From Phymorhynchus buccinoides (taxonomy: Eukaryota; Mollusca; Gastropoda; Neogastropoda; Raphitomidae), in the NCBI GenBank assembly GCA_017654935.2, contig CM065691.1:33575925-33639924 (forward strand): DNA of 64,000 nt, written 5' to 3'. This document shows, one piece after another, positions 16,456-63,152 of this stretch. The first letter of the stretch is position 1. Every line of letters begins with the position of its first letter. The position numbers and the translations under genes are program-made. The notes under the pieces are model-generated. The model saw only the letters and a list, made by a program, of their open reading frames with translations. It did not search any database and was not told the origin of the DNA.

Positions 16456-16626
16456 TGTTTGGGAATTGTTGTGGTATTAAGATTTTAGTTAAGCGCGCGA
16501 AGCGCGAGGGTCACGTGATGGCTGGGCAGACGAAGATCCGCCATGTTGACAACATGTACATCATGATCTAAATAAAGAGGTAAACACGACTATTCGGTAT
16601 CATTGTGTATATTGAGTGCATGAACT
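16456..16626 (+). repeat. 5' LTR of Gypsy element
   Basis: It begins TGTTTGGGAATTG and includes the palindrome GCGCGCGAAGCGCG and an AATAAA at 16571-16576, usable as polyadenylation signal. It has a short extra segment (TGTATAT near 16605) absent from the 3' LTR. TGGGGTCAGAAGTGG just after it (16627-16641) sits where the primer-binding site belongs. Confidence 0.9.
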
Positions 16627-16665
16627 TGGGGTCAGAAGTGGTGCTACAAGTACCCGGACGTATCT

Positions 16666-17656
16666 ATGGCAGGAATCAAGCCTACCAAGGCGTTTTCGTT
16701 TAGGCCAGAGGAATGGGCCACATGGATCAACGAATTTTGTCGCTACAGGAATGCCTCCAAATTATCCAAAGAAGAAGGGGAGGTACAGAGGGACACCTTG
16801 CTCTACATTATGGGCAGGGATGCCAAGAAAATATTCCAGACGTTCAACTTTGTTGAGAGAACTGTAGGAGAAGGTGAACAGGCGAGGCAAGTGCAGGAAA
16901 AAGATACTGACTTTGAGACGTTGATACAGAAGTTTGACTCCTACTTCATCGTCAAAAGGAACACCATACACGAACGTACGAAGTTTCAAGAACGAAAACA
17001 GAAGGAAGGAGAATCAGTAGAAGAATTCTACAAGGAGTTGCGAGATCTGGCTGTGCATTGTGAGTACAAAGACACGGAAAACAGAAGGAAGGAGAAACAG
17101 TAGAAGAATTCTACAGGGAGTTGCGAGATCTGGCTGTGCATTGTGAGTACAAAGACACGGAAAACAGAAGGAAGGAGAAACAGTAGAAGAATTCTACAGG
17201 GAGTTGCGAGATCTGGCTGTGCATTGTGAGTACAAAGACACGGAAGACCAGGTGAGGGACCGATTTGTAGTTGGCCTGTCGGACATTAAACTAAAAGAAA
17301 GACTGCAGTTGAACTATGATTTGACGTTGTCCAAAGCTCTTGAAATTGCACGTCAGCACGAACAGATAAAGAGACAAATGAGAGAACAGCAAAGTGAAGC
17401 TCAAGTAGATGAAGCAAGAAGGGAGGAAACAGCTTACGGTGCTGGACCTGCTCAGGGGAGAGATTTAGAACGAGGCGCCTTCAGTCGCAGAAGTAGAGGA
17501 CAGACATCGTCTTACCGGGTTTCATATCGCCAAGAACAGTGTGGAAAGTGCGGTTACAGCCATGGCAGTGGAAGATGCCCAGCACAGGGTCAGACTTGCA
17601 GAAAATGCCTGAAAAAGAACCACTTCAAAAAAGATGTGTCGCACACAAGTGCGTGA
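16666..17656 (+). pseudogene. Gypsy gag pseudogene with zinc-knuckle region
   Basis: The frame from ATG 16666 has Gag-like features, including the segments FRPEEWATWINEF, DTLLYIMGRDAKKIF and FQERKQKEGESVEEFY. At 16995-17243 an 83-bp segment is present three times in tandem; the two extra copies add 166 bp, shift the frame by one and create a stop at 17101-17103. The distal part reads on in a second frame at 17204-17656. It ends in two cysteine clusters: C-x2-C-x3-H-x4-C near 17537, and a second one whose last Cys position is Val. Confidence 0.9.
16995..17243 (+). repeat. Tandem triplication, 83-bp unit, inside gag
   Basis: Copies begin at 16995, 17078 and 17161 (AAAACAGAAGGAAGGAG). They are nearly identical, so the duplication is recent. 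Because 83 is not a multiple of 3 it breaks the frame. Confidence 0.95.
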
Positions 17657-17726
17657 AGTTCAAGAAGATGAAGAGATTCTGTCATAGACAAGGACAAACA
17701 AGAGGCACCGTGGACAGTGGATTTAA

Positions 17727-19251
17727 CTCTTTCATTCCTGGTTTTACACTAACTGTTACTTCCCCTTATTCCTATGTTTCCATTATCTATCTATTCCCTT
17801 CATTCCTGGATTTACAGAGGGTTAAAAATGTAATAATGGGGTACTTATTTTAGAGACTTACGGCAGTAACCCACATTACACGAACCTAAGCATGTCATAT
17901 ACCGTTGTGTAGGGATTTGATGTGAGAAGCTGTTTGTGACCATGTTGACACATTATGGTGACATGACAGATGACACACAGGTGTAAAACAGGTAAGTTTA
18001 CAATTTAACATAAAACATACCATCATGCCATACATGCAGGTCAGTGTTTTTCAAGCAAATTGTATATTTCATGCACGCACTCACCAAGCGATGCCTCCTG
18101 TACATCCCCATGCATTGTGCTTGTCATTACTCCACAGATAAGTGTCACCATTCTCACCATAATTGTCCCCAACACATCAACAGTTTATTGTCTGTTTTGA
18201 CGATTATGTATGGATACAACACAAATATATAGAGGACAAGCAACACACTATTTTGCACACTTTGTTTTACACAGATAATATTTTCAGTTCCCTATCTACG
18301 CATGTATGTACCCCTGTCACAGTCATCACATCACATGTCACACATAGGTGACACGTGTGTGACACACCTTGAAGCAGTCACTGTGATGCTGTTTGCAGCA
18401 CAGATACCACACTTTTCACACATCGTAGTTTGACACGTTTTGAAGGGGTGTCGGTATAGCTGACACCAGTGTGTGCATGCTTGTGCTTGGGGTGTCGTGC
18501 CGTGCACAACACACAGGTGTGCTTGTCACCTACACCTTTGTTTTTCTCTGGCTCCTCGGTGCGTTTTTTAGGTGTTATTGTTGGTATATTCTAGCAGAGA
18601 ACTGAGCATTTCATCAGAGTAATATAACTGAAGATAATCTTGCGCTTTCATTGATGTGTCTAACACACACACAGGCCCTGATCGATGTTTGAATTCCGTC
18701 CTAGTTTCGGTTTTGGTGTGACATAATTCCCCCTAATCCACTCAAAACTCGGTCGAGTGTAGAACAAAGGTAAGTTTTGATAATCTAACTCCTCACCACT
18801 AGCATCATCACCACCTATGTGCGCTTCAATAGCTGCCACGAACTAAACTCACTCTTCTTCTGTCAAATTGGTCAGAATCAGAATTTTCTCCACCTTCTAT
18901 TTTTATTACCAACAAAAACTGCCACGTGCACAGTACACACCTACTACACGCATTCACTCAAAACGACCCCTTTCCCACAGAGCTGGAAGGAGGAGGGGGT
19001 GGGGGAAAGGGAAGGGTAAACGGCTGGGGGGTCTGGCATCACATTCCATTCATAAACAGTCCCGTTAGGGCTGGGTCAAGGGTAAATGACGTACTTTGAT
19101 GGCGCGAATTGCGGTAAGTCCAAAGTACGATCCCGGAATACCGGTCTCTCGGATTGAAAGGAGTTATTTCTTCCAGAACGGTTTTCCGTTCTCCAGGATT
19201 GAAAGGTATTAAGCCTTGAAACCGGAAAACCGGTCTGCAGGATTGAAAGAG
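17727..19251. mobile_element. TTAA-flanked piggyBac-like element nested in Gypsy
   Basis: TTAA occurs at 17723-17726 and 19252-19255. The ends are inverted repeats: CTCTTTCATTCCTG against the inverse of CAGGATTGAAAGAG, one mismatch in 14. Near the right end GGATTGAAAG recurs three times, each after a CCGGTCT/CCGTTCT-like phrase (subterminal repeats). It separates Gag from protease. No transposase is visible in 1,525 bp, so it is non-autonomous. Confidence 0.85.
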
Positions 19252-19255
19252 TTAA

Positions 19256-20984
19256 AAATTAGAAACACCAACGCTAGGTTCAAGATTGACTCAGGGGCAG
19301 ATGTTTCCATCATGTCCTACCACACGATCAAAAACCTGAAAAGTAAGCCTCGACTCAGAAAGTTACCTGCCATACTGACTTCACCAGGAGGGAAGTTGAC
19401 AGTTTGTGGATAGTTCCATGCACAGACTTTGTACAAAGATGCACTGTACAAGTTTCGTGTGGTGGTAGCTACATCTGGGAGTAACCTACTCAGCAGGAGT
19501 GCTTCAGTGAAGATGGGACTCATCCAGCGAGTAGAAGAGGTTCACAGAAATGTGTTTCGAGCATCAGGACTCCTTCAGACGGAACCAGAGGCGATAGAAC
19601 TCAAAGAAGGTGCTACACCATACTGCGTCACCACGCCACGTAGGGTGCCGTTTCCTCTTCAAAAGAAAGTAGAGGTAGAACTCCGACGCATGGAGGACGC
19701 CGGGATCATCGAGGAGATAAAAGAACCAACCTCATGGTGCCGACCGTAGACTTCAAATAACTCAACAAAGCTGTCATGAGGCCGCATTGTTTCATCCCGA
19801 ACTTGGATGATATTGCTCCAAAGCTGGCTGGAAGCAAAGTCTATTCAACACTAGACGCATCAAGTGGATTTTTTCAGATCCCTCTTAAAGAAGAAAGCAA
19901 GAAGTTGACCACTTTCATAACCCCATTCGGATGCTTCGTCTTCAAACGTGTGCCCATGGGAATCTCTCTGGGTCCGGAGTGTTTTCAAGCCAAGATGAAA
20001 GAAACACTTGAGGGTCTGCCAGGGTGTGAGACCATCATGGATGACACCATCGTCTACAGGAAGACAGAAGAGGAGCACGACGCCAGGCTGGAAGCAGTTC
20101 TCAACAGAATTGAAGAAAAGGGACTGAAGTTGAACAAAAAAAAGTGTAACTTTAAACAGTCTGCGGTGAAGTATTTTGGCCACATTATTAGTGAGAAAGG
20201 AGTGAGCCCAGACCCGGACAAAGTGAAGGCGATTGTTGAAATGCCTCCACCGACATCAGTTTCTGAACTCAGGACAGTGTGTGGAATGCTCAATTACTTG
20301 AGCAAGTTTGTACCCGGGATGGCCACCACAATGAAGCCAATGACCGACTTGCTCCACAAGAACACAGCATGGTGTTGGGGTCCTGCACAGCAACAGGCGT
20401 TTGAAAAGGTGAAGAAGCAATTTTCATCATCAGGCACATTAGGATTCTACGATGCTGAAAGAAAGACAGTAGTGAGTGCGGACAGTTCCAGTTATGGACT
20501 GGGATGTACCATCCTGCAGTGGAACGGAGATAAGCTCATTCCCATAGCTTTCGCCTCCAGAACCCTGACAGAAGCTGAGCGCAAATATCCTCAAATTGAG
20601 AAAGAATGTCTTGCGTCAGTATTTGCGTGTGAAAAATTCGCTAAATATTTAGTTGGACTTGACACCTTTGAGCTGCTGACCGACCACAAACCACTTGTGC
20701 CACTGATGAGTTCAAAAGACATCGACAAAGCACCGCTTCGTTGCCAGTGACTCCTCATCCGACTCGTGAGGTTCAATTTCCAAGTACGCCATGTGCCTGG
20801 AAAAGAAATGGTCATCGCTGATGCGCTATCTAGAAACCCTGTACCCGACACCGGTGATGACCTGTCAGAAATTGTGTCAGTCTACGTGTCATGTCCAGCT
20901 GTGATATATCACCTACTTGTCTTGAGAAGATCCGTGCACAAACAGTCCATGATGCCGAACTTCAGCAAGTCATTGACTATATAA
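19256..20984 (+). pseudogene. Gypsy pol pseudogene: protease, reverse transcriptase, RNase H
   Basis: Protease is seen as FKIDSGADVSIMS (active-site DSGA) near 19280. An in-frame TAG at 19411-19413 interrupts it. The frame runs on to 19749, then a short deletion and frameshift fall just before the RT core, removing the N-terminal RT motif. The frame 19776-20750 carries RT motifs: [26 protein letters not shown] and the catalytic IMDDTIVY. RNase H follows ([20 protein letters not shown]). TGA at 20748-20750 sits where an Arg is expected (CGA to TGA), after which the same frame continues with VPGKEMVIADALSRNP to 20984. Confidence 0.95.
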
Positions 20985-20999
20985 ACAGTCAACAAATTC

Positions 21000-21750
21000 T
21001 GGCTTATTTTCTCTACGCACGGCATCCCAGAGACCATTATATCTGATAGTGGGCCTCAGTTCCAGTGCCGTGAATTCCAGAAGTTCGCCCAGGAGTACGA
21101 GTTTCTACACCGAACCAGCAGCCCAGGCTTCCCGCAGGCAAAGCGCCGTGAAGATTGCCAAGAAGATACTTCAGCAAGCAGAACCAGACCTGGCATTGCT
21201 GAACTACAGGGCAACGCTTCATTCTTCAACTGGGGTTAGTCCTGCTGTCGCCTTGATGGGGAGACGTCTGCGGACAAAACTCCCAATTCTCCCTGACAAC
21301 CTGCTGCCAAACCGTCCGGACGATGACCAGATCCGGAGAAAGGACAGCGACGTGAAGGAGGCATACAGACAGCGGTACAACCAAGCCAAAGGTGCTATGC
21401 CCCTGTCATCACTATGCCCTGGAGATGCAGTTCTGCTTCAGCCCAGTCCAGGTGAGAAGACCTGGAAGACGGACGGCACGGTGGTTGCTGCAGACGGCAG
21501 CAACAGAACCTACCTAATCAACACTCCTCATGGCGTTTTTCGTCGCAACAGGCAGCACATCCAGGCGCTGCCAACACCTGTGAAGACACCGCCTCCTGTC
21601 CAACCGTTGCCTCAAAACGATGCTGAACCGGACATGTCGCAGCTTGGGGAGACGCTCCTCCACAAACAACATCACGACCAGCTACCCGTGCTTCGAAAGG
21701 CTACTTTGCTCAAAAGCCAGTCAGATACCGTGAAGATTGAGAGCAGTTGA
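21000..21750 (+). pseudogene. Gypsy integrase, C-terminal remnant
   Basis: The part of the integrase core after its second catalytic Asp is present (HGIPETIISDSGPQF near 21015), followed after a frameshift by LALLNYRATLHSSTGVSPA and LMGRRLRTKLP at 21200-21290. The HHCC zinc-binding domain and the first part of the core are missing between about 20984 and 21000, so a large internal deletion occurred. A chromodomain is not evident. The frame ends at a TGA at 21748-21750. Confidence 0.9.
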
Positions 21751-39719: not shown

Positions 39720-41183
39720 TCAGGCTGAAGACGGTTTCCAGCTGTAGCCAATCCTGTGGGACACCTCAGCCTTCAGAGCACTCAGGAGTTCTTCTCTCTC
39801 TTCGTCACTCTGCTGCCCATGAAACCGCAGGAGACTGACCAGCACCAGATCGCCCTCGGCACCTCGACCGACCACAGTATCATCGTCAAATTCTTCGCCC
39901 GCAGATTCTGTCACGATGTTCTTTTCGATGACCTCAAACTGCTCCCAGCTTGTACACTGCCTCACAATGCTCATGAGCTTGCTGTAGCGTATCTCTCCGT
40001 GAAAAACCAGGCTGTGCAGCTGGGTGCAGGTCTCCACGAGTTTCAGCAGTTCGCCATCACATTGTGTTGGGTCATGGTAGCAGACGAAAGACTGGAGGGT
40101 TTTCTTGAACCTATCTCTCAAGGCAAATATCAACGTTTCTGAACAGCGCGCAAACTTGAGGATCTGAAAGACAGTGAGAGGAACTTCAGGTTTGAGGAGG
40201 GCTCCCATGTCCACATCGGGCACGCGGGACATGATGGTCATCTCCACAGCCAGTCCTGGACTCCTCTTTACCAGGGACGTCCACGAGGCTGAAGCGATTT
40301 CCGGCAGACAGTGCTTGGGATCATGGGCGACAAACGACACAAGGATTCTCAGAGTCACAAGCCTCGCTCTTGACGAAGACGCAAGCTCTTGGACAAGTTC
40401 ATCGCTGAGCATAGGAGATCTAATAGCCAAATGTTGCAAAGAACGAAAATGTGATATAAGAGAGACGGTGTAGGAGGCAGACAGAAGCAGAGGCATCCTT
40501 TCTGACCACTGTTTGTTCTTCATCCAAAACAGACTGAGGTTCTCCAGACTCTCCAACTTGGGGTTTTTCTTCATCACCTCAAACACATTGATCTCAGCAT
40601 CATTCAGAATTTCGGGGTACATAGGCCATGACACAATTTCAATGCTTTTGAGTCGGAAGGCTGTGGCGACAAGCGTTAAAATGCTTTGCAGATCTTTTTG
40701 CAGTGGTCGAAACCCTACCAGATGGAAATCGGATGTCATCAGCCCGACTTCAAGCACCAGGTGCTGTAGTCGGCAAACCTGAGACATGTGTATGAGCATC
40801 TCTCTAAAATCATCCTGCATCCTGATCAAGTGGCCCTTGAAAGACACCGTAAGGCGTTGGAAGAAATGGCCAAACTTATCCACAATGATTCTGAACTTGT
40901 CACTCAGGAATGAGTACGTCAAACTGAAGTTGTGGTCCCCACCGACTGCGTGCAATTGAGCCGACTTCCAGTTGGAGGGGTGGTTGAATATGTTGTAGAG
41001 GTTGTGGCAGGTGGTGGACGCATGGTACTGATCCACCAGGGAGAGGTGTTCGAACACCTTCACCCACACCGTCTCAGGGAGGCAGCTGAAATCGTACTGT
41101 GCATCAAGGTCCTGCTCCTGCAAGCTGGCTGCAGCTGACATTGTTGTCCTTTGGGCAGACATTCCTGCCGTTGAATCAGCCAT
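39720..41183 (-). CDS. F-box protein, FBXO39/FBXO33-like, with leucine-rich C-terminus
   Basis: A 487-codon uninterrupted frame. After a low-complexity N-terminus, residues about 32-76 form an F-box: FSCLPETVWVKVFEHLSLVD, then CHNLYNIFNHPSNWKS. The rest is leucine-rich with irregular repeats (LQHLVLEVG, LESLENLSLFWM, LQHLAIRSPMLSDELVQEL, LHSLVFHG). Family F-box proteins bridge substrates to SKP1-CUL1 ubiquitin ligases; the repeats would bind substrate. The HDPKHCLPEIASASWTSL segment resembles the HDP...WxxL segment of FBXO39. The start has A at -3 and G at +4, and an in-frame TGA sits nine bases upstream. Substrate unknown. Intronless coding region; the 5' UTR is spliced. Confidence 0.92.
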   Translation of the reverse strand: MADSTAGMSAQRTTMSAAASLQEQDLDAQYDFSCLPETVWVKVFEHLSLVDQYHASTTCHNLYNIFNHPSNWKSAQLHAVGGDHNFSLTYSFLSDKFRIIVDKFGHFFQRLTVSFKGHLIRMQDDFREMLIHMSQVCRLQHLVLEVGLMTSDFHLVGFRPLQKDLQSILTLVATAFRLKSIEIVSWPMYPEILNDAEINVFEVMKKNPKLESLENLSLFWMKNKQWSERMPLLLSASYTVSLISHFRSLQHLAIRSPMLSDELVQELASSSRARLVTLRILVSFVAHDPKHCLPEIASASWTSLVKRSPGLAVEMTIMSRVPDVDMGALLKPEVPLTVFQILKFARCSETLIFALRDRFKKTLQSFVCYHDPTQCDGELLKLVETCTQLHSLVFHGEIRYSKLMSIVRQCTSWEQFEVIEKNIVTESAGEEFDDDTVVGRGAEGDLVLVSLLRFHGQQSDEEREELLSALKAEVSHRIGYSWKPSSA

Positions 41184-41227
41184 ATTATTTCAGGACTGGC
41201 ACAGACTACCAGCAATAGGTGTATCCA
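41184..41227 (-). other. F-box gene 5' UTR portion of the coding exon
   Basis: TTCTATTTTCCAG|TGGATACACC gives a good splice acceptor with the exon starting at 41227. The leader has a stop in frame before the ATG. A noncoding upstream exon is therefore expected; 45955-46071 is a candidate. Confidence 0.65.
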
Positions 41228-46705: not shown

Positions 46706-46919
46706 GGGGAAGACGGGGTAAAAAGCGCATGGGCGGGTAAGAAGCCCACCCCAATTATCTCATGAATTGAAGCAAATTTTAGTCTCATTTTGCTCATGAG
46801 ACGAGCGTTAATGTCTAGCATTCGTCTCATGGGCAAATTTGACTGAAATTTTCTTTATTTCATGAGATAATTGGGGTGGGCTTCTTACCCGCCCATGCGC
46901 TTTTTACCCCGTCTTCCCC
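46706..46919. mobile_element. Palindromic TA-flanked MITE, copy A (214 bp)
   Basis: GGGGAAGACGGGGTAAAAAG ... CTTTTTACCCCGTCTTCCCC, flanked by TA. Almost the whole element is one inverted repeat with arms of about 100 bp around a short centre (GTTAATGTCTAGCATT). Confidence 0.9.
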
Positions 46920-52193: not shown

Positions 52194-52382
52194 TTACAAA
52201 CGTACGGACTCCTGGATCTTCTCGAAGGCCGTGTTGTCGTAGGCGGCGCCGTGTTCAGGACCATTCACGGGACCCCCCTTCTCCCCCTGCACGGTGAAGG
52301 GGAGGGTGGCGGGGGCGTAGCGGCCCGTTCGGTTCTCCGGTTCAGCAGGGCCCCAGTCGGGCTGAGGCTTGAAACATCCAGG
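52194..52382 (-). CDS. SLC6 terminal exon: cytosolic tail and stop
   Basis: After acceptor GATCTGTTCCAG, 62 codons and TAA. Starts PGCFKPQPDWGPAEPENRTG, ends AAYDNTAFEKIQESVRL. GC-rich codon use contrasts with the AT-rich surroundings. The last four residues (SVRL) could fit a PDZ ligand; this is speculative. Confidence 0.92.
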   Translation of the reverse strand, partial: PGCFKPQPDWGPAEPENRTGRYAPATLPFTVQGEKGGPVNGPEHGAAYDNTAFEKIQESVRL

Positions 52383-55300
52383 CTGGAACAGATCATTATT
52401 ATATGTGACCTAGCATTAAGTTGCTGGCTAGTTTCTCACAACAGGCTTGCAAAGTCAAAAATCTCATTTTTTGTCAATTTTGAGTTATGGGTAGTACTAT
52501 TTTTGTGTTCTATAACATCTTATCTTTCATACTAAATAAAGGATAATCTTTACTATGGTCTCTAAATGGTCTTATGAGTGTTTTGAAACGAGTAGGTCAA
52601 TGCATTTACTAGGCCTAAAGCTAGGCTAGACATTAGACTGTGTTTTCTCAAAATGGCCGACGCTCACCCTACTAAATTTAATTAAATGCTAATAACTCGG
52701 GAACGGAAAAAGATACAAGAATGGTTCTTGTATAATTGGAAAGAGAATTGTCTGAAGTTGTCAATTGTGTAATTTTCTCAGAATAGTCAGTTTGACACTT
52801 AATGTCCCTTTCGTGGTGCTGAGTCACATACTATTTCTTTTCGATTGGAAATCGAATAATATTTAGGAAAATTTTCACTTTTTGAAGGCAGTTTATTTTA
52901 GGCATACACTACAGATCAACGGTATCACAATCTTGAACTTAATTAACATAAGCCTATTTCCCAATTTGAAAAATAAAATAACATTAATTAACGAACTGCA
53001 AAATCTCCTCTACCTCTTTTTTTTTGCAATTCGGAAAAACAGCCTACGGGAGGACAACGGTGTGATGAGAAATATTGACCCCCTAGAAAACTGAGACCAT
53101 GGTCAATAGTCTCCAGTGAAAGTAGACCCAGGTCATTATTTATATAGTTGTATAGTACACGTTTCTATGGAAAAAAGTGTAGAAATCTGATCCGGGTCTA
53201 TTTTCTCCTGGAGACTATTGATCAAGGTGTCACCATTCTACGGGGGAAGTAGGGGAGAGTTGGGGGGAGGGTGTCACTATTTTTCGCAACACCAAATCTG
53301 AAATGAACGAAAGGCGGCTACCGCGTGAATTATGGCGACTTCGCACGTACAGGCCTGTTAGTTTGTCGGACACATTACCAAGCTGACCCCTCGTTCTTTT
53401 TGACTTACCACGCAGTGTCTGGACGATGTCTATGATGACGATGATGAGGAAAATGGTTACTTACCACGCCGAATCGGACCATCTGGACGATGTCAACGAT
53501 GACGATGATGATGGAAATGGTTACTTACCACGCCGAATAGAACCATCTGGAGGATGTCAACGATGACGATGATGATGGAAATGGTTACTTACCACGCCGA
53601 ATCGGACCACCTGGACGATGTCAACGATGACGATGATGAGATGGAAAAATGGTGGTTACTTACCACGCCGAATCGGAACATCTGGACGATGTCAACGTGA
53701 ACGATGAGGATAATGAGGGAAATGGTGACTTACCACGCCGAATAGGACCATCTGGACGATGTCAACGATGACGATGATGATGGAAATGGTTACTTACCAC
53801 GCCGAATCGGAACATCTGGACGATGTCAACGTGAACGATGAGGATAATGAGGGAAATGGTGACTTACCACGCCGAATCGAACCATCTGGAGGATGTCAAC
53901 GATGACGATGATGATGTAAATGGTTACTTACCACGCCGAATCGAACCATCTGGAGGATGTCAACGATGACGATGATGATGGAAATGGTTACTTACCACGC
54001 CGAATCGGACCATCTGGACGATGTCAACGATGACGATGATGAGGGAAATGGTTACTTACCACGCCGAATCGGACCATCTGGAGGATGTCAACGATGACCA
54101 TCAACGATCGATGATGATGGAAATGGTGACTTACCACGCCGAATCGGACCATCTGGACGATGTCAACGATGACGATGATGATGAGGAAATGGTTACTTAC
54201 CACGCCGAATCGAACCATCTGGAGGATGTCAACGATGACGATGATGAAGGAAAAATGGTGACTTACCACGCCGAATCGAACCATCTGGACGATGTCAACG
54301 ATGACGATGATGATGAGGGAAATGGTGACTTACCACGCCGAATCGAACCATCTGGAGGATGTCAACGATGACGATGATGATGGAAATGGTGACTTACCAC
54401 GCCGAATCGAACCATCTGGAGGATGTCAACGATGACGATGATGATGGGGAAATGGTGACTTACCACGCCGAATCGAACCATCTGGAGGATGTCAACGATG
54501 ACGATGATGATGAGGGAAACGGTGACTTACCACGCCGAATCGAACCATATGGACGATGTCAACGATGACGATGATGATGAGGGAAATGGTGACTTACCAC
54601 GCCGAATCGTGGATGTCAACGATGAGGGAAATGGTGACGTACCACGCCGAATCGGACCATATGGACGATGTCAACGATCTGGACGATGTCAACGTGAGGA
54701 TGTCACGATGAGGATAATGAGGGAAATGGTTACTTACCACGCCGAATCGAACCATCTGGAGGATGTCAACGATGACGATGGAGGATGTCACCACGATGAC
54801 GATGGATGATGTCAACGGACGAAATGAGTGGTGACTTACCACGCCGAATCGGACCATCTGGAGGATGTCAACGATGACGATGATGATGGGAAACGCCGTG
54901 ACTTACCACGCCGAATCGAACCATCTGGAGGATGTCAACGATGACGATGATGATGAGGGAAATGGGAGGATGTCAACGATGACGATGATGACCACGCCGT
55001 ATCGGACCATCTGGAGGATGTCAACGATGACGATGATGATGGAAATGGTGACTTACCACGCCGAATCGGACCATCTGGACGATGTCAACGATGACGATGA
55101 TGATGAGGGAAATGGTGACTTACCACGCCGAATCGGACCATCTGGAGGATGTCAACGATGACGATGATGAGGGAAATGGTGACTTACCACGCCGAATCGG
55201 ACCATCTGGAGGATGTCAACGATGACGATGATGAGGGAAATGGTGACTTACCACGCCGAATCGAACCATCTGGAGGATGTCAACGATGACGATGATGATG

Positions 55301-58300
55301 AGGGAAACGGTGACTTACCACGCCATATCGGACCATATGGACGATGTCAATGTGAACGATGGCAATGATATGGCTACTTACCACGCCGAATCGGAACATC
55401 TGGACGATGTCAACGTGAACGATGAGGATAATGAGGGAAATGGTTACTTACCACGCCGAATTGGACCATCTGGAGGATGTCAACGATGACGATGATGATG
55501 AGGGAAACGGTGACTTACCACGCCGAATCGGACCATCTGGAGGATGTCAACGATGACGATGATGAGGGAAATAGTGACTTACCACGCCGAATCGAACCAT
55601 CTGGACGATGTCAACGATGACGATGATGATGAGGGAAATGGTGACTTACCACGCCGTATCGGACCATCTGGAGGATGTCAACGATGACGATGATGATGGA
55701 AATGGTGACTTACCACGCCGAATCGGACCATCTGGACGATGTCAACGATGACGATGATGCTGAGGGAAATGGTGACTTACCACGCCGAATCGGACCATCT
55801 GGAGGATGTCAACGATGACGATGATGATGGGAAATGGTGACTTACCACGCCGAATCGGACCATCTGGAGGATGTCAACGATGACGATGATGAGGGAAACG
55901 GTGACTTACCACGCCGAATCGGACCATCTGGAGGATGTCAACGATGACGATGATGAGGGAAATGGTGACTTACCACGCCGAATCGAACCATCTGGACGAT
56001 GTCAACGATGACGATGATGAGGGAAACGGTGACTTACCACGCCGAATCGAACCATCTGGAGGATGTCAACGATGACGATGATGATGGAAATGGTTACTTA
56101 CCACGCCGAATCGAACCATCTGGACGATGTCAACGATGACGATGATGAGGGAAACGGTGACTTACCACGCCGAATTGAACCATATGGAGGATGTCAACGA
56201 TGACGATGATGAGGGAAACGGTGACTTACCACGCCGAATCGGACCATCTGGAGGATGTCAACGATGACGATGATGAAGGAAACGGTGACTTACCACGCCG
56301 AATCGGACCATCTGGACGATGTCAACGATGACGATGATGATGGAAATGGTTACTTACCACGCCGAATCGAACCATCTGGAGGATGTCAACGATGACGATG
56401 ATGATGGAAATGGTTACTTACCACGCCGAATCGGACCATCTGGACGATGTCAACGATGACGATGATGAGGGAAATGGTTACTTACCACGCCGAATCGGAA
56501 CATCTGGACGATGTCAACGTGAACGATGAGGATAATGAGGGAAATGGTGACTTACCACGCCGAATAGGACCATCTGGACGATGTCAACGATGACGATGAT
56601 GATGGAAATGGTTACTTACCACGCCGAATCGGAACATCTGGACGATGTCAACGTGAACGATGAGGATAATGAGGGAAATGGTGACTTACCACGCCGAATC
56701 GAACCATCTGGAGGATGTCAACGATGACGATGATGATGTAAATGGTTACTTACCACGCCGAATCGAACCATCTGGAGGATGTCAACGATGACGATGATGA
56801 TGGAAATGGTTACTTACCACGCCGAATCGGACCATCTGGACGATGTCAACGATGACGATGATGATGGAAATGGTTACTTACCACGCCGAATCGGACCACC
56901 TGGACGATGTCAACGATGACGATGATGATGGAAATGGTTACTTACCACGCCGAATCGGACCATCTGGACGATGTCAACGATGACGATGATGATGGAAATG
57001 GTTACTTACCACGCCGAATCGAACCATCTGGAGGATGTCAACGATGACGATGATGAAGGAAACGGTGACTTACCACGCCGAATCGAACCATCTGGACGAT
57101 GTCAACGATGACGATGATGCTGAGGGAAATGGTGACTTACCACGCCGAATCGAACCATCTGGAGGATGTCAACGATGACGATGATGAGGGAAATGGTGAC
57201 TTACCACGCCGAATCGGACCATCTGGAGGATGTCAACGATGACGATGATGAGGGAAATGGTGACTTACCACGCCGAATCGAACCATCTGGAGGATGTCAA
57301 CGATGACGATGATGATGAGGGAAACGGTGACTTACCACGCCATATCGGACCATATGGACGATGTCAATGTGAACGATGGCAATGATATGGCTACTTACCA
57401 CGCCGAATCGGAACATCTGGACGATGTCAACGTGAACGATGAGGATAATGAGGGAAATGGTTACTTACCACGCCGAATTGGACCATCTGGAGGATGTCAA
57501 CGATGACGATGATGATGAGGGAAACGGTGACGTACCACGCCGTATCGGACCATCTGGAGGATGTCAACGATGACGATGATGAGGGAAATAGTGACTTACC
57601 ACGCCGAATCGAACCATCTGGACGATGTCAACGATGACGATGATGATGAGGGAAATGGTGACTTACCACGCCGTATCGGACCATCTGGAGGATGTCAACG
57701 ATGACGATGATGATGGAAATGGTGACTTACCACGCCGTATCGGACCATCTGGACGATGTCAACGATGACGATGATGCTGAGGGAAATGGTAACTTACCAC
57801 GCCGAATCGGACCATCTGGAGGATGTCAACGATGACGATGATGAGGGAAATGGTGACTTACCACGCCGAATCGGACCATCTGGAGGATGTCAACGATGAC
57901 GATGATGAGGGAAATGGTGACTTACCACGCCGAATCGAACCATCTGGAGGATGTCAACGATGACGATGATGATGAGGGAAACGGTGACTTACCACGCCAT
58001 ATCGGACCATATGGACGATGTCAATGTGAACGATGGCAATGATATGGCTACTTACCACGCCGAATCGGAACATCTGGACGATGTCAACGTGAACGATGAG
58101 GATAATGAGGGAAATGGTTACTTACCACGCCGAATTGGACCATCTGGAGGATGTCAACGATGACGATGATGATGAGGGAAACGGTGACGTACCACGCCAT
58201 ATCGGACCATCTGGAGGATGTCAACGATGACGATGATGAGGGAAATAGTGACTTACCACGCCGAATCGAACCATCTGGACGATGTCAACGATGACGATGA

Positions 58301-60487
58301 TGATGAGGGAAATGGTGACTTACCACGCCGTATGATGATGGAAATGGTGACGCCGACCATCTGGAGGATGTCAACGATGACGATGATGATGGAAATGGTG
58401 ACTTACCACGCCGAATCGGACCATCTGGAGGATGTCAACGATGACGATGATGAGAGGGAAATGGTGACTTACCACGCCGAATCGGACCATCTGGAGGATG
58501 TCAACGATGACGATGATGAGGGAAATGGTGACTTACCACGCCGAATCGGACCATCTGGAGGATGTCAACGATGACGATGATGAGGGAAACGGTGACTTAC
58601 CACGCCGAATCGGACCATCTGGAGGATGTCAACGATGACGATGATGAGGGAAATGGTGACTTACCACGCCGAATCGAACCATCTGGACGATGTCAACGAT
58701 GACGATGATGAGGGAAACGGTGACTTACCACGCCGAATCGAACCATCTGGAGGATGTCAACGATGACGATGATGATGGAAATGGTTACTTACCACGCCGA
58801 ATCGAACCATCTGGACGATGTCAACGATGACGATGATGAGGGAAACGGTGACTTACCACGCCGAATTGAACCATATGGAGGATGTCAACGATGACGATGA
58901 TGAGGGAAACGGTGACTTACCACGCCGAATCGGACCATCTGGAGGATGTCAACGATGACGATGATGAAGGAAACGGTGACTTACCACGCCGAATCGGACC
59001 ATCTGGACGATGTCAACGATGACGATGATGATGGAAATGGTTACTTACCACGCCGAATCGAACCATCTGGAGGATGTCAACGATGACGATGATGATGGAA
59101 ATGGTTACTTACCACGCCGAATCGGACCATCTGGAGGATGTCAACGATGACGATGATGATGAGGGAAATGGTGACTTACCACGCCAAATCGGACCATCTG
59201 GACGATGTCAACGTGAACGATGACAATTATATGATGAGGGACATGGTTACTTACCACGCCGAATCGGACCATCTGGACGATGTCAACGTGAACGATGAAG
59301 ATGCTGAGGGAAACGGTGACGTACCACTCCGCATCGGACCATATGGACGATGTCAACGAAGACGGTGATGCTGAGGGAAACGGTGACTTACCACGCCGAA
59401 TCGGACCACCTGGACGATGTCAACGTGAACAATGAGGATGATGAGGGAAATGGTGACTTACCACGCCGAATCGGAACATCTGGACGATGCCCACGATGAC
59501 GATGAGGGCGATGGGCACGGATACCATGACCCAGCCCAGCCCCTGCACCCAGTCCTCGAACACGTAGCCCGCGTAGCTGGCCTTGGTGTACTGCACAGCC
59601 CCGATGATGATGATGAACTGAAACAGCACACACAGCAGCACATACAATTCACAAATAAAGAATGTGCCATGTTCGCCTTCATGACCCTACACTCACACAG
59701 TACACATCAACAATGGTGGAGAGGACGACATACAAACAAATCAACATTTAATCAAGAGTGGCATAGCCTTCTAACCTTGAATGATGCTTTGCTTGTTTCC
59801 CTTTGGCTCTGATCCACTCATTGCTAGGTGATTGGCATCGTAATCAACTTTGGTGGAGGGGAGCTAATAAAAAAAAAGAGAGTTCTCCCCCTTTGTTCAA
59901 TTTCGTTATGTAAGACTTGCTTTCCTTTTACTTGAATAATAGAACCCTTCTTTATTTAGTGGCTTTGTTACCCAGCACGTTGGTTGTATGAAAGAGAAAA
60001 GAAGGTAGATGGCTGTACAGGGGAAATAGTGCGAAACCTTCTCCTTCTTCTTCAGTCGCTCAGACAATTTCCTGTCACTTATCAGCCCAGATGCGTCATG
60101 CTGCCTGTTCTGCGCCTAACTAAGAAATAGTTAGGCACAGCAAGTCCGGCTGGAGGAAATCTTTTTGAAAGTGTTTCTTGAAAAATAAAAGGCAGGAGAA
60201 TGGACCGGTAAGGCAGAAAGATAGTAGATGACAGTAAGCAAAGCGAAAAGGCAGAGTCAAAGAGAGTGACAGATTAGAGGAAGTTACAAGCACACAGCTT
60301 CCAGAAGGTGGTGGAACTAGTTATACAAAAGACCCCCCCACCCGGTATCCCCACGGGGGTCCTGGTGTGAAAGAGAAGGTACTCACAGCCACAGTAATGG
60401 GCGTGACGACCAGCCAGGTGACCAGCCAGTAGATGTTGGGCTTGTGTCCGACCATCATCTCCACGTCAGCGCAGAAATTTCTGAATC
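52194..60487 (-). CDS. SLC6 sodium:neurotransmitter symporter, last three exons (partial)
   Basis: Join of 60387-60487, 59462-59617 and 52194-52382 on the minus strand. Together they give about 147 C-terminal residues of a Na+/Cl- dependent plasma-membrane transporter. The first exon opens FRNFCADVEMMVGHKPNIYW (family pattern RF..DI..M.G..P..YW); then come the last two membrane segments (TM11-12) with the GYVFEDWVQGLGW motif, and a cytosolic tail with KPQPDWGPAEPENRTGRY, typical of SLC6 tails. Phases agree (1, 0, 0). The subfamily (glycine, proline or another amino-acid type) cannot be fixed from the C-terminus. Upstream exons lie beyond 64,000. The last intron is 7.1 kb and mostly a minisatellite copied from the exon-donor junction. 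Confidence 0.93.
52383..53420 (-). other. SLC6 last intron, acceptor-proximal part
   Basis: Unique AT-rich sequence plus a fold-back MITE at 53079-53246. No additional exon recognised. Confidence 0.6.
53079..53246. mobile_element. Fold-back MITE in SLC6 intron
   Basis: CCCCCTAGAA ... CAATAGTCTCCAG at the left is matched in inverse by CTGGAGACTATTGATC ... TTCTACGGGGG at the right. Length 168 bp, noncoding. Confidence 0.65.
53420..59461 (-). repeat. Exon-donor minisatellite, about 64-bp unit, roughly 90-95 copies
   Basis: On the minus strand each unit reads CATCGTCATCGTTGACATC, then CTCCAGATGGTCCGATTCG, GCGTG|GTAAGTCACCATTTCC. The first 48 bases align in frame with the last 16 codons of the exon at 59462-59617 (IVIVGIVQMFRFGV in the exon, IVIVDILQMVRFGV in the units) and the rest is the start of its intron with donor GTAAGT. 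GTAACC replaces GTGACC after GTAA in many units. Units vary in steps of 3 bp in the CATCAT run. Several multi-unit blocks are repeated almost exactly. Confidence 0.93.
59462..59617 (-). CDS. SLC6 penultimate exon (TM11-12 region), source of the minisatellite
   Basis: 156 bp, exactly 52 codons, phase 0 at both ends. Acceptor TGTGTGCTGTTTCAG|TTC, donor GGCGTG|GTAAGT. It encodes FIIIIGAVQYTKASYAGYVF, then EDWVQGLGWVMVSVPIALIV and IVGIVQMFRFGV. Confidence 0.93.
59640..60180 (-). other. SLC6 intron with dispersed repeat
   Basis: 59665-59900 is a repeat in inverse relation to part of 63560-63760 (ATGTTCGCCTTCATGACCCT; TTTGGCTCTGATCCAC; AATCAACTTTGGTGGAGG). A fragment also occurs near 33720-33780. 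No exon recognised. Confidence 0.6.
60180..60355 (-). repeat. Truncated AAG-tailed retroposon copy
   Basis: Only the half from AAAGGCAGGAGAATGGACCG to GTATCCCCACGGGGG is present; the tail half is missing. Confidence 0.75.
60387..60487 (-). CDS. SLC6 antepenultimate exon
   Basis: 101 bp: two bases of a split Gly codon, then 33 codons ending VVTPITVA. Acceptor CTGTTTGCAG, donor GTGAGT. The phase-1 start before FRNFC agrees with the usual SLC6 intron position just after the YG of TM9-10. Confidence 0.92.
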
Positions 60488-60790
60488 CTGCAAACAGATT
60501 GTTTTTTTAAAAATACTGTCGCCGTGGGATTGTGTCGCAGCGATAGCATTTCCCGTGATATACTGTCGCAGCAACATTATTATCTGACAAAAGTGGTCGC
60601 GCGAGAACCTTTTCACGAAAATTGTCCTATAAAGTAAGGTTGCTGTCCATAAAAGCATATTCTGCGACACTATTTTGTGACAGGACACTGTGAAATATTG
60701 TAATAATTGAATGTGGTCATTTGCGACAAGTTTCTACGTGAAATGTTGCTGTCAGAGTTGTTATTGTCTGCCATGCTCTGCCTTCGGGGA
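60488..60790 (-). other. SLC6 intron, GTCGC-rich segment
   Basis: Phrases ACTGTCGC, TGTCGCAGCGA and GCGACA recur in both orientations, akin to the units at 61500-62330. No exon recognised. Confidence 0.5.
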
Positions 60791-61445
60791 GAGTAAGGGT
60801 TAGGGTAAATTGTTAGGGTCTGGGTTAGGGTTCTACAGACCTGTGTAACACTATGTGTAAGGGTAAGGGTTAGGGTTAGGGAAGTTTTTTGTACAGACCC
60901 GTATCACACTATGAGTAAGGGTAAGGGTTAGGGTTAGTCAAGTTTGTACAGACCCGTATCACACTATGAGTAAAGGTTAGGGTTAGATTTTTACAGACCT
61001 TTACCACACCATGTGTAAGGGTTAGGGGTTAGGGTTTGGGTTAGGGTTTTTACAGATCTTAATCACATTGTGTAAGGTTAAGGATTAGTGTTAGGATTAG
61101 GTTTTAACAAACCTGTATCACACTATATGTAAGACTGAGGGTTAGGGTTTTTACATACTCTGTATCACATCGTGTAAGGGTAAGGGTTAGGGTATGGACT
61201 GAGTTTTTACAGACCTGTATCCCATTATGTGTAAAGATAAGGGTTAGGGTTAGGGGTTTTACATAACCCCTGTTAGTCTATGTTTAAGGGTTAGACGTTA
61301 GGGTTTTGGTATGTTTTTTTTAACAGACCTGTTGCACGCAACATGTAAAGGTAAGCGTTAGGGTTAGGGCTAAGGTTTTTACAGACATGTGTCATACTTA
61401 GTAGCTATGTTAGGGTAAGGGTTTGGGTTAAGGATTAGGGTTAGA
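60790..61445. repeat. Telomere-motif minisatellite, 45-60 bp unit
   Basis: About 11 degenerate units contain TTTTTACAGACCTGTATCAC, ACTATGTGTAAGGG and one to three TTAGGG motifs. ACAGAC-type starts fall at 60835, 60893, 60948, 60993, 61052, 61108, 61155 and 61209. It is interstitial and lies within an SLC6 intron if the gene continues to the right. Confidence 0.85.
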
Positions 61446-61499: not shown

Positions 61500-62170
61500 C
61501 ATTTCTCGTTAAATCACAGAAAATACTGTCGCATGACCAGCTGCAGTGTTTCACAGGGAAATACTGTCGCATGACCAGCTGCAGTGTTTCACAGGGAAAT
61601 ACTGTCGCATGACTAGGGGAAGACGGGGTAAAAAGCGCATGGGCGGGTAAGGAGCCCACCCCAATTATCTCATGAAATAAAGAAAATTTCAGTCAAATTT
61701 GCCCATGAGACGAATGCTAGACATTAACGCTCGTCTCATGGGCAAAATGAAACTGAAATTTGCTTCATTTCATGAGATAATTGGGGTGGGCTTCTTACCC
61801 GCCCATGCGCTTTTTACCCCGTCTTCCCCTAGCTGCAGTGTTTCACAGGGAAATACTGTCGCATGACAAGCTGCAGTGTTTCACAGGGAAATACTGTCGC
61901 ATGACAAGCTGCAGTGTTTCACAGGGAAATACTGTCGCATGACTAGCTGCAGTGTTTCACAGGGAAATACTGTCGCATGACTAGCTGCAGTGTTTCACAG
62001 GGAAATACTGTCGCATGACTAGCTGCAGTGTTTCTCAGGGAAATACTGTCGCATGACTAGCTGCAGTGTTTCACAGGGAAATACTGTCGCATGACTAGCT
62101 GCAGTGTTTCACAGGGAAATACTGTCACATGACTAGCTGCGGTGTTTCACAGGGAAATACTGTCGCTGCG
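61500..62170. repeat. 38-bp minisatellite split by a MITE
   Basis: Unit AAATACTGTCGCATGACTAG, then CTGCAGTGTTTCACAGGG. About 3 units lie left of the MITE at 61616-61829 and 9 to its right. Looser copies continue to about 62330. Confidence 0.95.
61616..61829. mobile_element. Palindromic TA-flanked MITE, copy C (214 bp)
   Basis: Inserted in a 38-bp unit: the unit's GACTAGCTGCAG became GACTA-[element]-TAGCTGCAG. This fixes the target duplication as TA. Confidence 0.95.
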
Positions 62171-62529: not shown

Positions 62530-62743
62530 GGGGAAGACGGGGTAAAAAGCGCATGGGCGGGTAAGAAGCCCACCGCAATTATCTCATGAAATGAAGCAAA
62601 TTTCAGTCTCATTTTGCCCATGAGACGAGCGTTAATGTCTAGCATTCGTCTCATGGGCAAATTTGACTGAAATGTTCTTTATTTCATGAGATAATTGGGG
62701 TGGGCTTCTTACCCGCCCATGCGCTTTTTACCCCGTCTTCCCC
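62530..62743. mobile_element. Palindromic TA-flanked MITE, copy D (214 bp)
   Basis: Nearly identical to copies A and C; TA at 62528-62529 and 62744-62745. Confidence 0.9.
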
Positions 62744-62938: not shown

Positions 62939-63152
62939 GGTGAAGACGGGGTAAAAAGCCCATTGGCGGGTGAGAAGCCCATGTTAATTATCTCATGAAA
63001 TAAAGCAAATTTCAGTCACATTTGCCCATGAGACGAATGCTAAGCATTAACACTCGTCTCATGGGCAAAATGTGACTGAAATTTGCTTTATTTCATGAGA
63101 TAATTGGCATGGGCTTCTTACCCGCTCATGGGCTTTTTACCCCGTCTTCCCC
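62939..63152. mobile_element. Palindromic TA-flanked MITE, copy E (214 bp)
   Basis: Same length and flanks; more diverged at the left end (GGTGAAGACGG) and in the arms (CCCATGTTAATTATC). Confidence 0.9.

Follow-up and report, generated by a model that had tools for sequence, protein, structure and literature searches.

The stretch of DNA analysed (the window) comprises 64,000 nucleotides (nt) of the neogastropod snail Phymorhynchus buccinoides (contig CM065691.1, 60.6 Mb, positions 33,575,925 to 33,639,924; genome 2.12 Gb) and carries on its minus strand the 3' part of a glycine-transporter-like SLC6 gene, the last intron of which is mostly filled by a minisatellite built from copies of its own exon/donor junction. 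The gene was located via tblastn with a homologue as query (P0001 from Babylonia areolata, which bears the name 'sodium- and chloride-dependent glycine transporter 1-like'); three homologous proteins were found, two of them with names (Babylonia and Littorina). In order of transcription (all minus strand; a slash marks the exon boundary), the window holds i) a preceding exon at 60387-60487 (60387-60488 as placed via tblastn), with donor GCT/GTGAGT; ii) the penultimate exon at 59462-59617, with acceptor TGTTTCAG, a phase-0 end (...GIVQMFRFGV) and donor GTG/GTAAGT; and iii) the final coding exon at 52197-52382, also found via tblastn, which encodes the C-terminal tail PGCFKP...ESVRL. The penultimate exon codes for the last membrane segments of the SLC6 protein, its product is 92% identical to the Babylonia areolata transporter across 52 residues, and it joins the final exon (52382-52197) in frame without any residues from the array, in agreement with the initial annotation of this DNA, which had assigned the exon to an SLC6 gene. 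Further upstream exons lie in the neighbouring stretches L016 and L017. No match was obtained for the part of the homologue from residue 356 to 511; where it would be expected, L016:926-5925 consists of exactly 5,000 N, possibly a gap.

The last intron measures 7,079 nt, and the minisatellite (53418-59461, minus strand) accounts for 6.0 of these 7.1 kb. Its 64-nt unit, which adjoins the true junction, consists of ~48 nt of exon end followed by 16 nt of intron start including the donor; the exon part of the units differs from the real exon end by a median of 4 edits across the last 42 nt, and the composition described by the initial annotation (48 bases of exon end, the donor and the first intron bases) is borne out. 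Tandem Repeats Finder (TRF) returned one single array at 53418-59505 (period 64, 92.4 copies, 82% matches), of which the final 44 nt are true exon. Counted on the minus strand from 59461 downwards, the array holds 90 donor-anchored units with lengths of 64 nt (45 units), 67 nt (19), 70 nt (9) and others; thus the array claimed earlier is real, while its size of ~90-95 units has to be restated as 90 with an in-register donor inside the array. Eight of the 90 units are irregular (45-150 nt) and some of these include broken pieces. As units were anchored by CGTGGTAAGT with at most 2 substitutions, copies whose donor was lost by larger changes or by insertions and deletions are outside this count.

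On the gene strand, the in-array donors comprise 86 GTAAGT and 4 GTACGT, the first of the 90 being the real 5' splice site (GTAAGT, 59456-59461, minus strand), and the opposite strand has none; first-order Markov versions of the array sequence contained 0.4 GTAAGT on average and 3 at maximum in 500 versions. The dozens of consensus donors that had been reported to follow the real one are therefore present. At the far edge, the donor of a last, partial copy (53403-53408, minus strand, CTGCGTG/GTAAGTCAAAAAG) leads out of the array into the remaining ~1 kb of the intron (52383-53402, minus strand), where TRF listed no tandem repeat; with this copy included there are 91 sites (87 GTAAGT and 4 GTACGT), and GT is found in 91/91. 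Alignment of the 82 units of 60-72 nt (the 8 irregular ones excluded) yielded 42 distinct sequences with a mean pairwise identity of 0.89. Among the aligned units, five of the six columns of the donor were invariant, and since many other columns (e.g., GTTGACATC) were equally invariant, conservation of the donor within the array is not special.

Two unit motifs, with up to 4 substitutions allowed, had no match elsewhere in the window, and a genome search with the unit gave 32 matches, a lower bound because only the best candidates were scored: 25 were array-type, all at the SLC6 locus, and seven were SLC6 exons, mostly ending at the donor. No known RNA family in the window reached the gathering threshold. 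A structural role of a hairpin at the donor (GUGGU/ACCAU around AAGUC) was rejected, as none of four folded stretches stood out against shuffled versions (z of -1.73, -0.34, 0.51 and 1.03). A coding role of the array was likewise rejected, since a frame that reads on into the array meets a stop after 13 codons and since unit length is 1 mod 3 in 73/90 units.

The order of the units bears the marks of growth by blocks. Blocks of 6 to 13 units recur at offsets of 10, 31 or 41 units (five runs found), including a 10-unit block that recurs 41 units on with 1 difference in 640 nt, a 13-unit block at offset 31 with 9 differences in 852 nt and an 8-unit block at offset 10 with 2 differences, while the first five (units 0-4) and the last four units (86-89) lie outside all five runs. 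In this one assembly, such internal block duplications suggest recent growth, and the donor copy through which the array is left at its far edge (GTAAGTCAAAAAGAACG) is plausibly what is left of the place where the intron once began. Near-identical multi-unit blocks are where assemblers err, and a comparable amphioxus array seems to have been misassembled in the draft genome, according to the available text of the report (PMC3087553); hence the array could be real and its length an assembly expansion. On the other hand, the 82 regular units comprise 42 distinct sequences, and this diversity, the non-periodic order and the unduplicated edges all fit biological growth, and smaller junction arrays are found on many contigs, so that we hold an expansion of this kind to be quite unlikely.

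With the first donor spliced to the last exon, the protein would read ...FRFGV-PGCFKP..., which matches the homologues, none of the three having an insert at this junction. The next donors, if used, would lengthen the exon by 70, 137, 207, 282, 349 nt and so on, and each would add VSHHFPHHPHCSR plus a stop; because every extension begins with the same unit, all would run into the same stop after 13 codons. By predicted U1 pairing (simple duplex energy), 87 of the 91 sites equal the real donor at -8.6 kcal/mol, the 4 GTACGT sites reaching -4.4 kcal/mol.

Use of such copies has a precedent in human IFI6 (G1P3, 6-16), where, by the title of Turri et al. 1995, a minisatellite provides multiple splice donors and, in the accessible part of a 2015 paper (PMC4526556), two downstream repeat units act as donors to produce three mRNAs. 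The snail units likewise supply splice donors by sequence (86 GTAAGT, 4 GTACGT), and since the competing donors are identical and the extensions graded in length, several downstream donors might generate meaningful isoforms with truncated or altered C-termini, in keeping with the source of transcript variants that the initial annotation suggested. The human minisatellite reportedly has both a smaller unit and fewer copies than the snail array. However, all extensions here would yield one truncated protein or decay targets and no range of isoforms, which makes this reading improbable, if still worth a thought. Far less credible is a third outcome, in which units would be spliced as 18-nt microexons (CCAG, then ATGGTNCGATTCGGCGTG, then GTAAGT) to insert in-frame MVRFGV-like repeats. 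An 18-nt interval from CCAG to the donor exists in 79/90 units, 43 of these with 46 nt ahead (CCAG is absent in 8 units), CCA is invariant and its G kept in 75 of the 82 aligned units, and the GTTGACATC block is invariant as well; yet the distance from branch point to AG and the intron length would be what is generally regarded as unusually short, the three homologous proteins lack any MVRFGV-like insert, and CAG is plain exon sequence. We therefore consider microexons extremely unlikely.

The same genome carries further arrays of this type at other SLC6 junctions. Within the same gene (minus strand), a second donor-side array of 118 nt x 4.7 (L017:1810-2365, within C12:33648901-33658800) repeats in the next intron an exon end (...SPASDFL) with its donor (CTCAA/GTACGT): it provides five in-register donors including the real one, a sixth match being more distant, and TTTTCAG ahead of each exon-like copy creates possible cassettes, three of 64 nt and one of 65 nt. 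At the acceptor side, the last exon of the paralogue L014 (minus strand) is preceded by a 50-nt x 16.5 array (L014:7772-8593, within C12:33877000-33886900) whose units are acceptor-like (often CTGAC ... TTTTATTTCAG), with 17 sites if the real one and one that ends in CGG are counted; this array fills most of the last intron and ends at the real acceptor. A search with the Pfam family SNF revealed other SLC6 exons that are followed by repeated pieces of their own ends, e.g., at C12:6.496 Mb (period 105) and at C23:48.924 Mb (period 93), both confirmed in the sequence; because exon edges are uncertain in many of the 30 loci of this search, no rate is given for SLC6 exons. Seven SLC6 paralogue loci (L014 among them) have the homologous exon, with donors GTAGGT, GTCAGT (three), GTGCGT (two) and GTACGT, and none has a donor-derived minisatellite in the homologous intron (~1.0-2.5 kb); in L012 and L013, GA-rich and GT-rich simple repeats are located just inside the intron. 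Separately, an 81-nt x 4.7 array (L011:6706-7089) starts within ~20 nt past the stop codon of another SLC6 paralogue.

The frequency of such repeats at unrelated genes was estimated on 58 housekeeping exons from three families, comprising 18 of 54 chaperonin, 20 of 32 proteasome and 20 of 54 DEAD-box rows of the search tables. Rows were taken in table order, skipping two long intronless matches and two near-duplicates for the chaperonins (where L067 was taken out of order), two near-duplicates for the proteasome, and, for the DEAD-box family, near-duplicates, any match interrupted by stops, one match longer than 400 nt and another at the end of a contig. Splice sites were located with a crude hand-set matrix, and a junction was counted as crossed when 12 nt on each side were covered by a self-match (35 nt or longer, identity 75% or higher, offset 20-600). 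Under this definition, repeats crossed 24 of 116 junctions in 20 of the 58 exons: 12 donors (chaperonin 5/18, proteasome 5/20, DEAD-box 2/20) and 12 acceptors (chaperonin 7/18, proteasome 1/20, DEAD-box 4/20), with L058 bearing arrays at both sides of its exon. A view of the structure, which the initial annotation had called unusual, as a singular way of making a minisatellite thus finds no support, as unrelated sequences are arranged alike at donors and acceptors of housekeeping exons and comparable arrays are known from amphioxus.

Junctions were crossed more frequently than background points (26/315; Fisher p 0.0006), the latter being spaced evenly along 1.1-kb pieces taken from the window (array region excluded) and from nine SLC6 stretches and not a random genome sample, and there was no excess over points 200 or 350 nt inside the same introns (44/232; p 0.77), while exon midpoints were crossed in 5/58. 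These points are non-independent, several exons come from one gene and rates differ among families, being highest in chaperonins. The location of repeat edges was the least expected result: across the 58 exons, the exon-side edge of the repeat cluster fell 12-120 nt inside the exon in 19 cases, as compared to 5, 6 and 3 for the three successive intron bins beyond it, each of 108 nt (19 vs 5, binomial p 0.007), with 3 edges at the exon edge itself and 6 extending further into or through the exon. An earlier edge count on chaperonin, proteasome and SLC6 exons pointed in the same direction. Thus repeats near exons tend to begin in the exon and not just anywhere in the intron, a tendency that calls for a larger sample. 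A fully junction-blind origin had been our first reading, from 18/76 junctions vs 34/152 intron points, and was dropped because of the lower background (26/315) and because array edges cluster in exon ends.

Copied splice signals were followed at 19 junctions, of which 17 came from the 38 chaperonin and proteasome exons and two from the SLC6 loci L048 and L049 (DEAD-box exons excluded). GT was present in 34/37 donor copies and AG in 23/23 acceptor copies, where flank identity predicts 31.7 and 21.1 respectively, and the three GT losses are GC copies in L048; there was no sign of removal of decoy sites among the copied signals at these 19 junctions. Genome-wide, triples of TGGTAAGT at gaps of 48-70 nt numbered 1,797, as against 3,127 for the reversed motif: tandem arrays are plentiful in this genome, yet not specially those of the TGGTAAGT donor motif.

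These counts bear on the dedicated role (U1 decoy or splicing regulator) that had been proposed for the array. As a regulator, its many U1 sites might slow down or adjust the splicing of the last intron, or protect the transcript against premature polyadenylation. The real donor's predicted U1 pairing is retained at 87/91 sites and GT at 91/91 of those counted (sites destroyed by larger changes would go uncounted), as a regulator would have it. Nevertheless, unit blocks outside the donor are just as invariant, so that the donor is not specially preserved; similar structures are found at acceptors and in other genes; the seven paralogues do without an array; donor triples at the spacing of the array are not enriched over the reversed pattern; and splicing in amphioxus seems, in the accessible reports, undisturbed by comparable arrays. 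A dedicated function thus finds no support here, and we give it only a very slight chance.

The closest known systems are the 'mirages' of amphioxus, which, in the portions of the reports available (PMC3087553, PMC3902484), are minisatellite-like tandem duplications of intron-exon boundaries in Adh3, the globins BflGb6 and BflGb9, PGBD5 and TnC. Both 5' and 3' boundaries are affected there, copies often keep AG/GT, regular splicing seems undisturbed, haplotypes vary in unit number, and cluster edges escape homogenization. The snail array is alike in having units of minisatellite size that span an adjoining exon/intron boundary and carry its splice signals, and the snail genome is alike in having 5'- and 3'-boundary cases in several genes (12 donors, 12 acceptors; both in L058). 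On the other hand, the host is a mollusc and not a cephalochordate, the array has ~90 units as compared to 3 and 6 given for two BflGb6 haplotypes in the text available, and 20/58 housekeeping exons are affected in the snail.

The array is therefore most probably a mirage (we put the probability at roughly 0.72), generated by tandem duplication across the exon/donor junction followed by growth and tolerated because the copy attached to the exon stays intact. Several lines of evidence argue for it: i) the unit derives from the adjoining exon end and intron start; ii) the array has grown by blocks; iii) the frame joined from the first donor is intact; iv) similar structures exist at many exons; v) copied signals are conserved. 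The process would have started with a tandem duplication over the exon/donor junction of the SLC6 last intron, and duplication of single units and of many-unit blocks would have enlarged it. A junction-crossing duplication has next to no effect provided that splicing keeps to the exon-attached site, because one complete junction always stays on the exon and the rest goes into the intron. Splicing would take place chiefly at the first donor through exon definition, and any use of downstream copies would be minor and would entail a stop after 13 codons and loss of the C-terminal tail. Exon ends may act as permanent seeds, since the copy attached to the exon is always retained, and this would account for the concentration of array edges inside exons.

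Several points weigh against this interpretation. Use of the first donor is itself a prediction; junction repeats are no commoner than those located 200-350 nt inside the respective introns (24/116 vs 44/232), so that the case for seeding depends on boundary counts and on a non-random background; neutrality at 90 equal donors is an extrapolation, since the copy number is far above that of mirages in the accessible literature; and silence is not guaranteed, as downstream repeat copies are used in human IFI6 according to the report cited above.

Intron gain by tandem genomic duplication, e.g., in potato RdRp (PMC4974935, in the text available; Gao & Lynch 2009 and Zhuo 2007 are listed for the subject among the references of PMC3087553), also involves splice signals copied by tandem duplication; however, new introns are thought to arise there, whereas in the snail an existing intron was enlarged and the coding sequence left unchanged. 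As far as their available texts go, a paper on an abalone intron minisatellite is not about junctions, and one on earthworm metallothionein describes exon-4 duplications absent from the transcript plus intron minisatellites, junction crossing not being stated. No mollusc mirage was found among open-licence papers, which is weak evidence of absence. New are the size of the array, its mollusc host, the commonness of such arrays and the concentration of array edges inside exon ends.

The importance of the SLC6 array resides less in a special function than in the class it represents: splice junctions are often tandemly copied in this snail, and splicing presumably copes. Tentatively, and at slightly less than even odds, we propose that exon ends seed minisatellites: about one third of conserved exons (20 of the 58 sampled) would have their own junctions tandemly copied in the adjoining intron with signals mostly intact, the exon-attached copy could not be lost and would keep re-seeding, and the spliceosome would routinely select the exon-attached site among several, at the extreme 90, near-identical ones. 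Mirages, reported for amphioxus in the papers above, are frequent in a mollusc as well. The SLC6 array is in effect a natural experiment on splice-site choice, with identical donors in one transcript that differ only in position and exon context, and the rule for choosing the first donor could be read from counts of complementary DNA. Arrays of this kind also bear on gene annotation (false exons and false isoforms), on assembly, and on models of intron growth, or of the origin of new introns, via tandem copies of splice junctions.

Other features of the window were recorded as well. Downstream of the SLC6 gene and on the same (minus) strand, 39720-41189 contains a 489-residue open reading frame (ORF) that is F-box-protein-like by eye. 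On the plus strand, 16624-21750 contains ORFs that resemble, by eye, gag and reverse transcriptase/RNase H of a long terminal repeat retroelement; this region also includes a tandem repeat of 83 nt x 3. A short element like a miniature inverted-repeat transposable element (MITE), with inverted ends like GGGGAAGACGGGGTAAAAAG, occurs at 46706-46919, 48264, 61616-61829, 62530-62743 and 62939-63152 (nine end motifs in the window) and is present in L013 and L017 too. In the intron or introns upstream of the preceding SLC6 exon, 60822-61254 is a degenerate array in which TTAGGG-like motifs are abundant, and 61514-62166 is a 38-nt satellite (up to 97% matches) interrupted by the MITE-like element.

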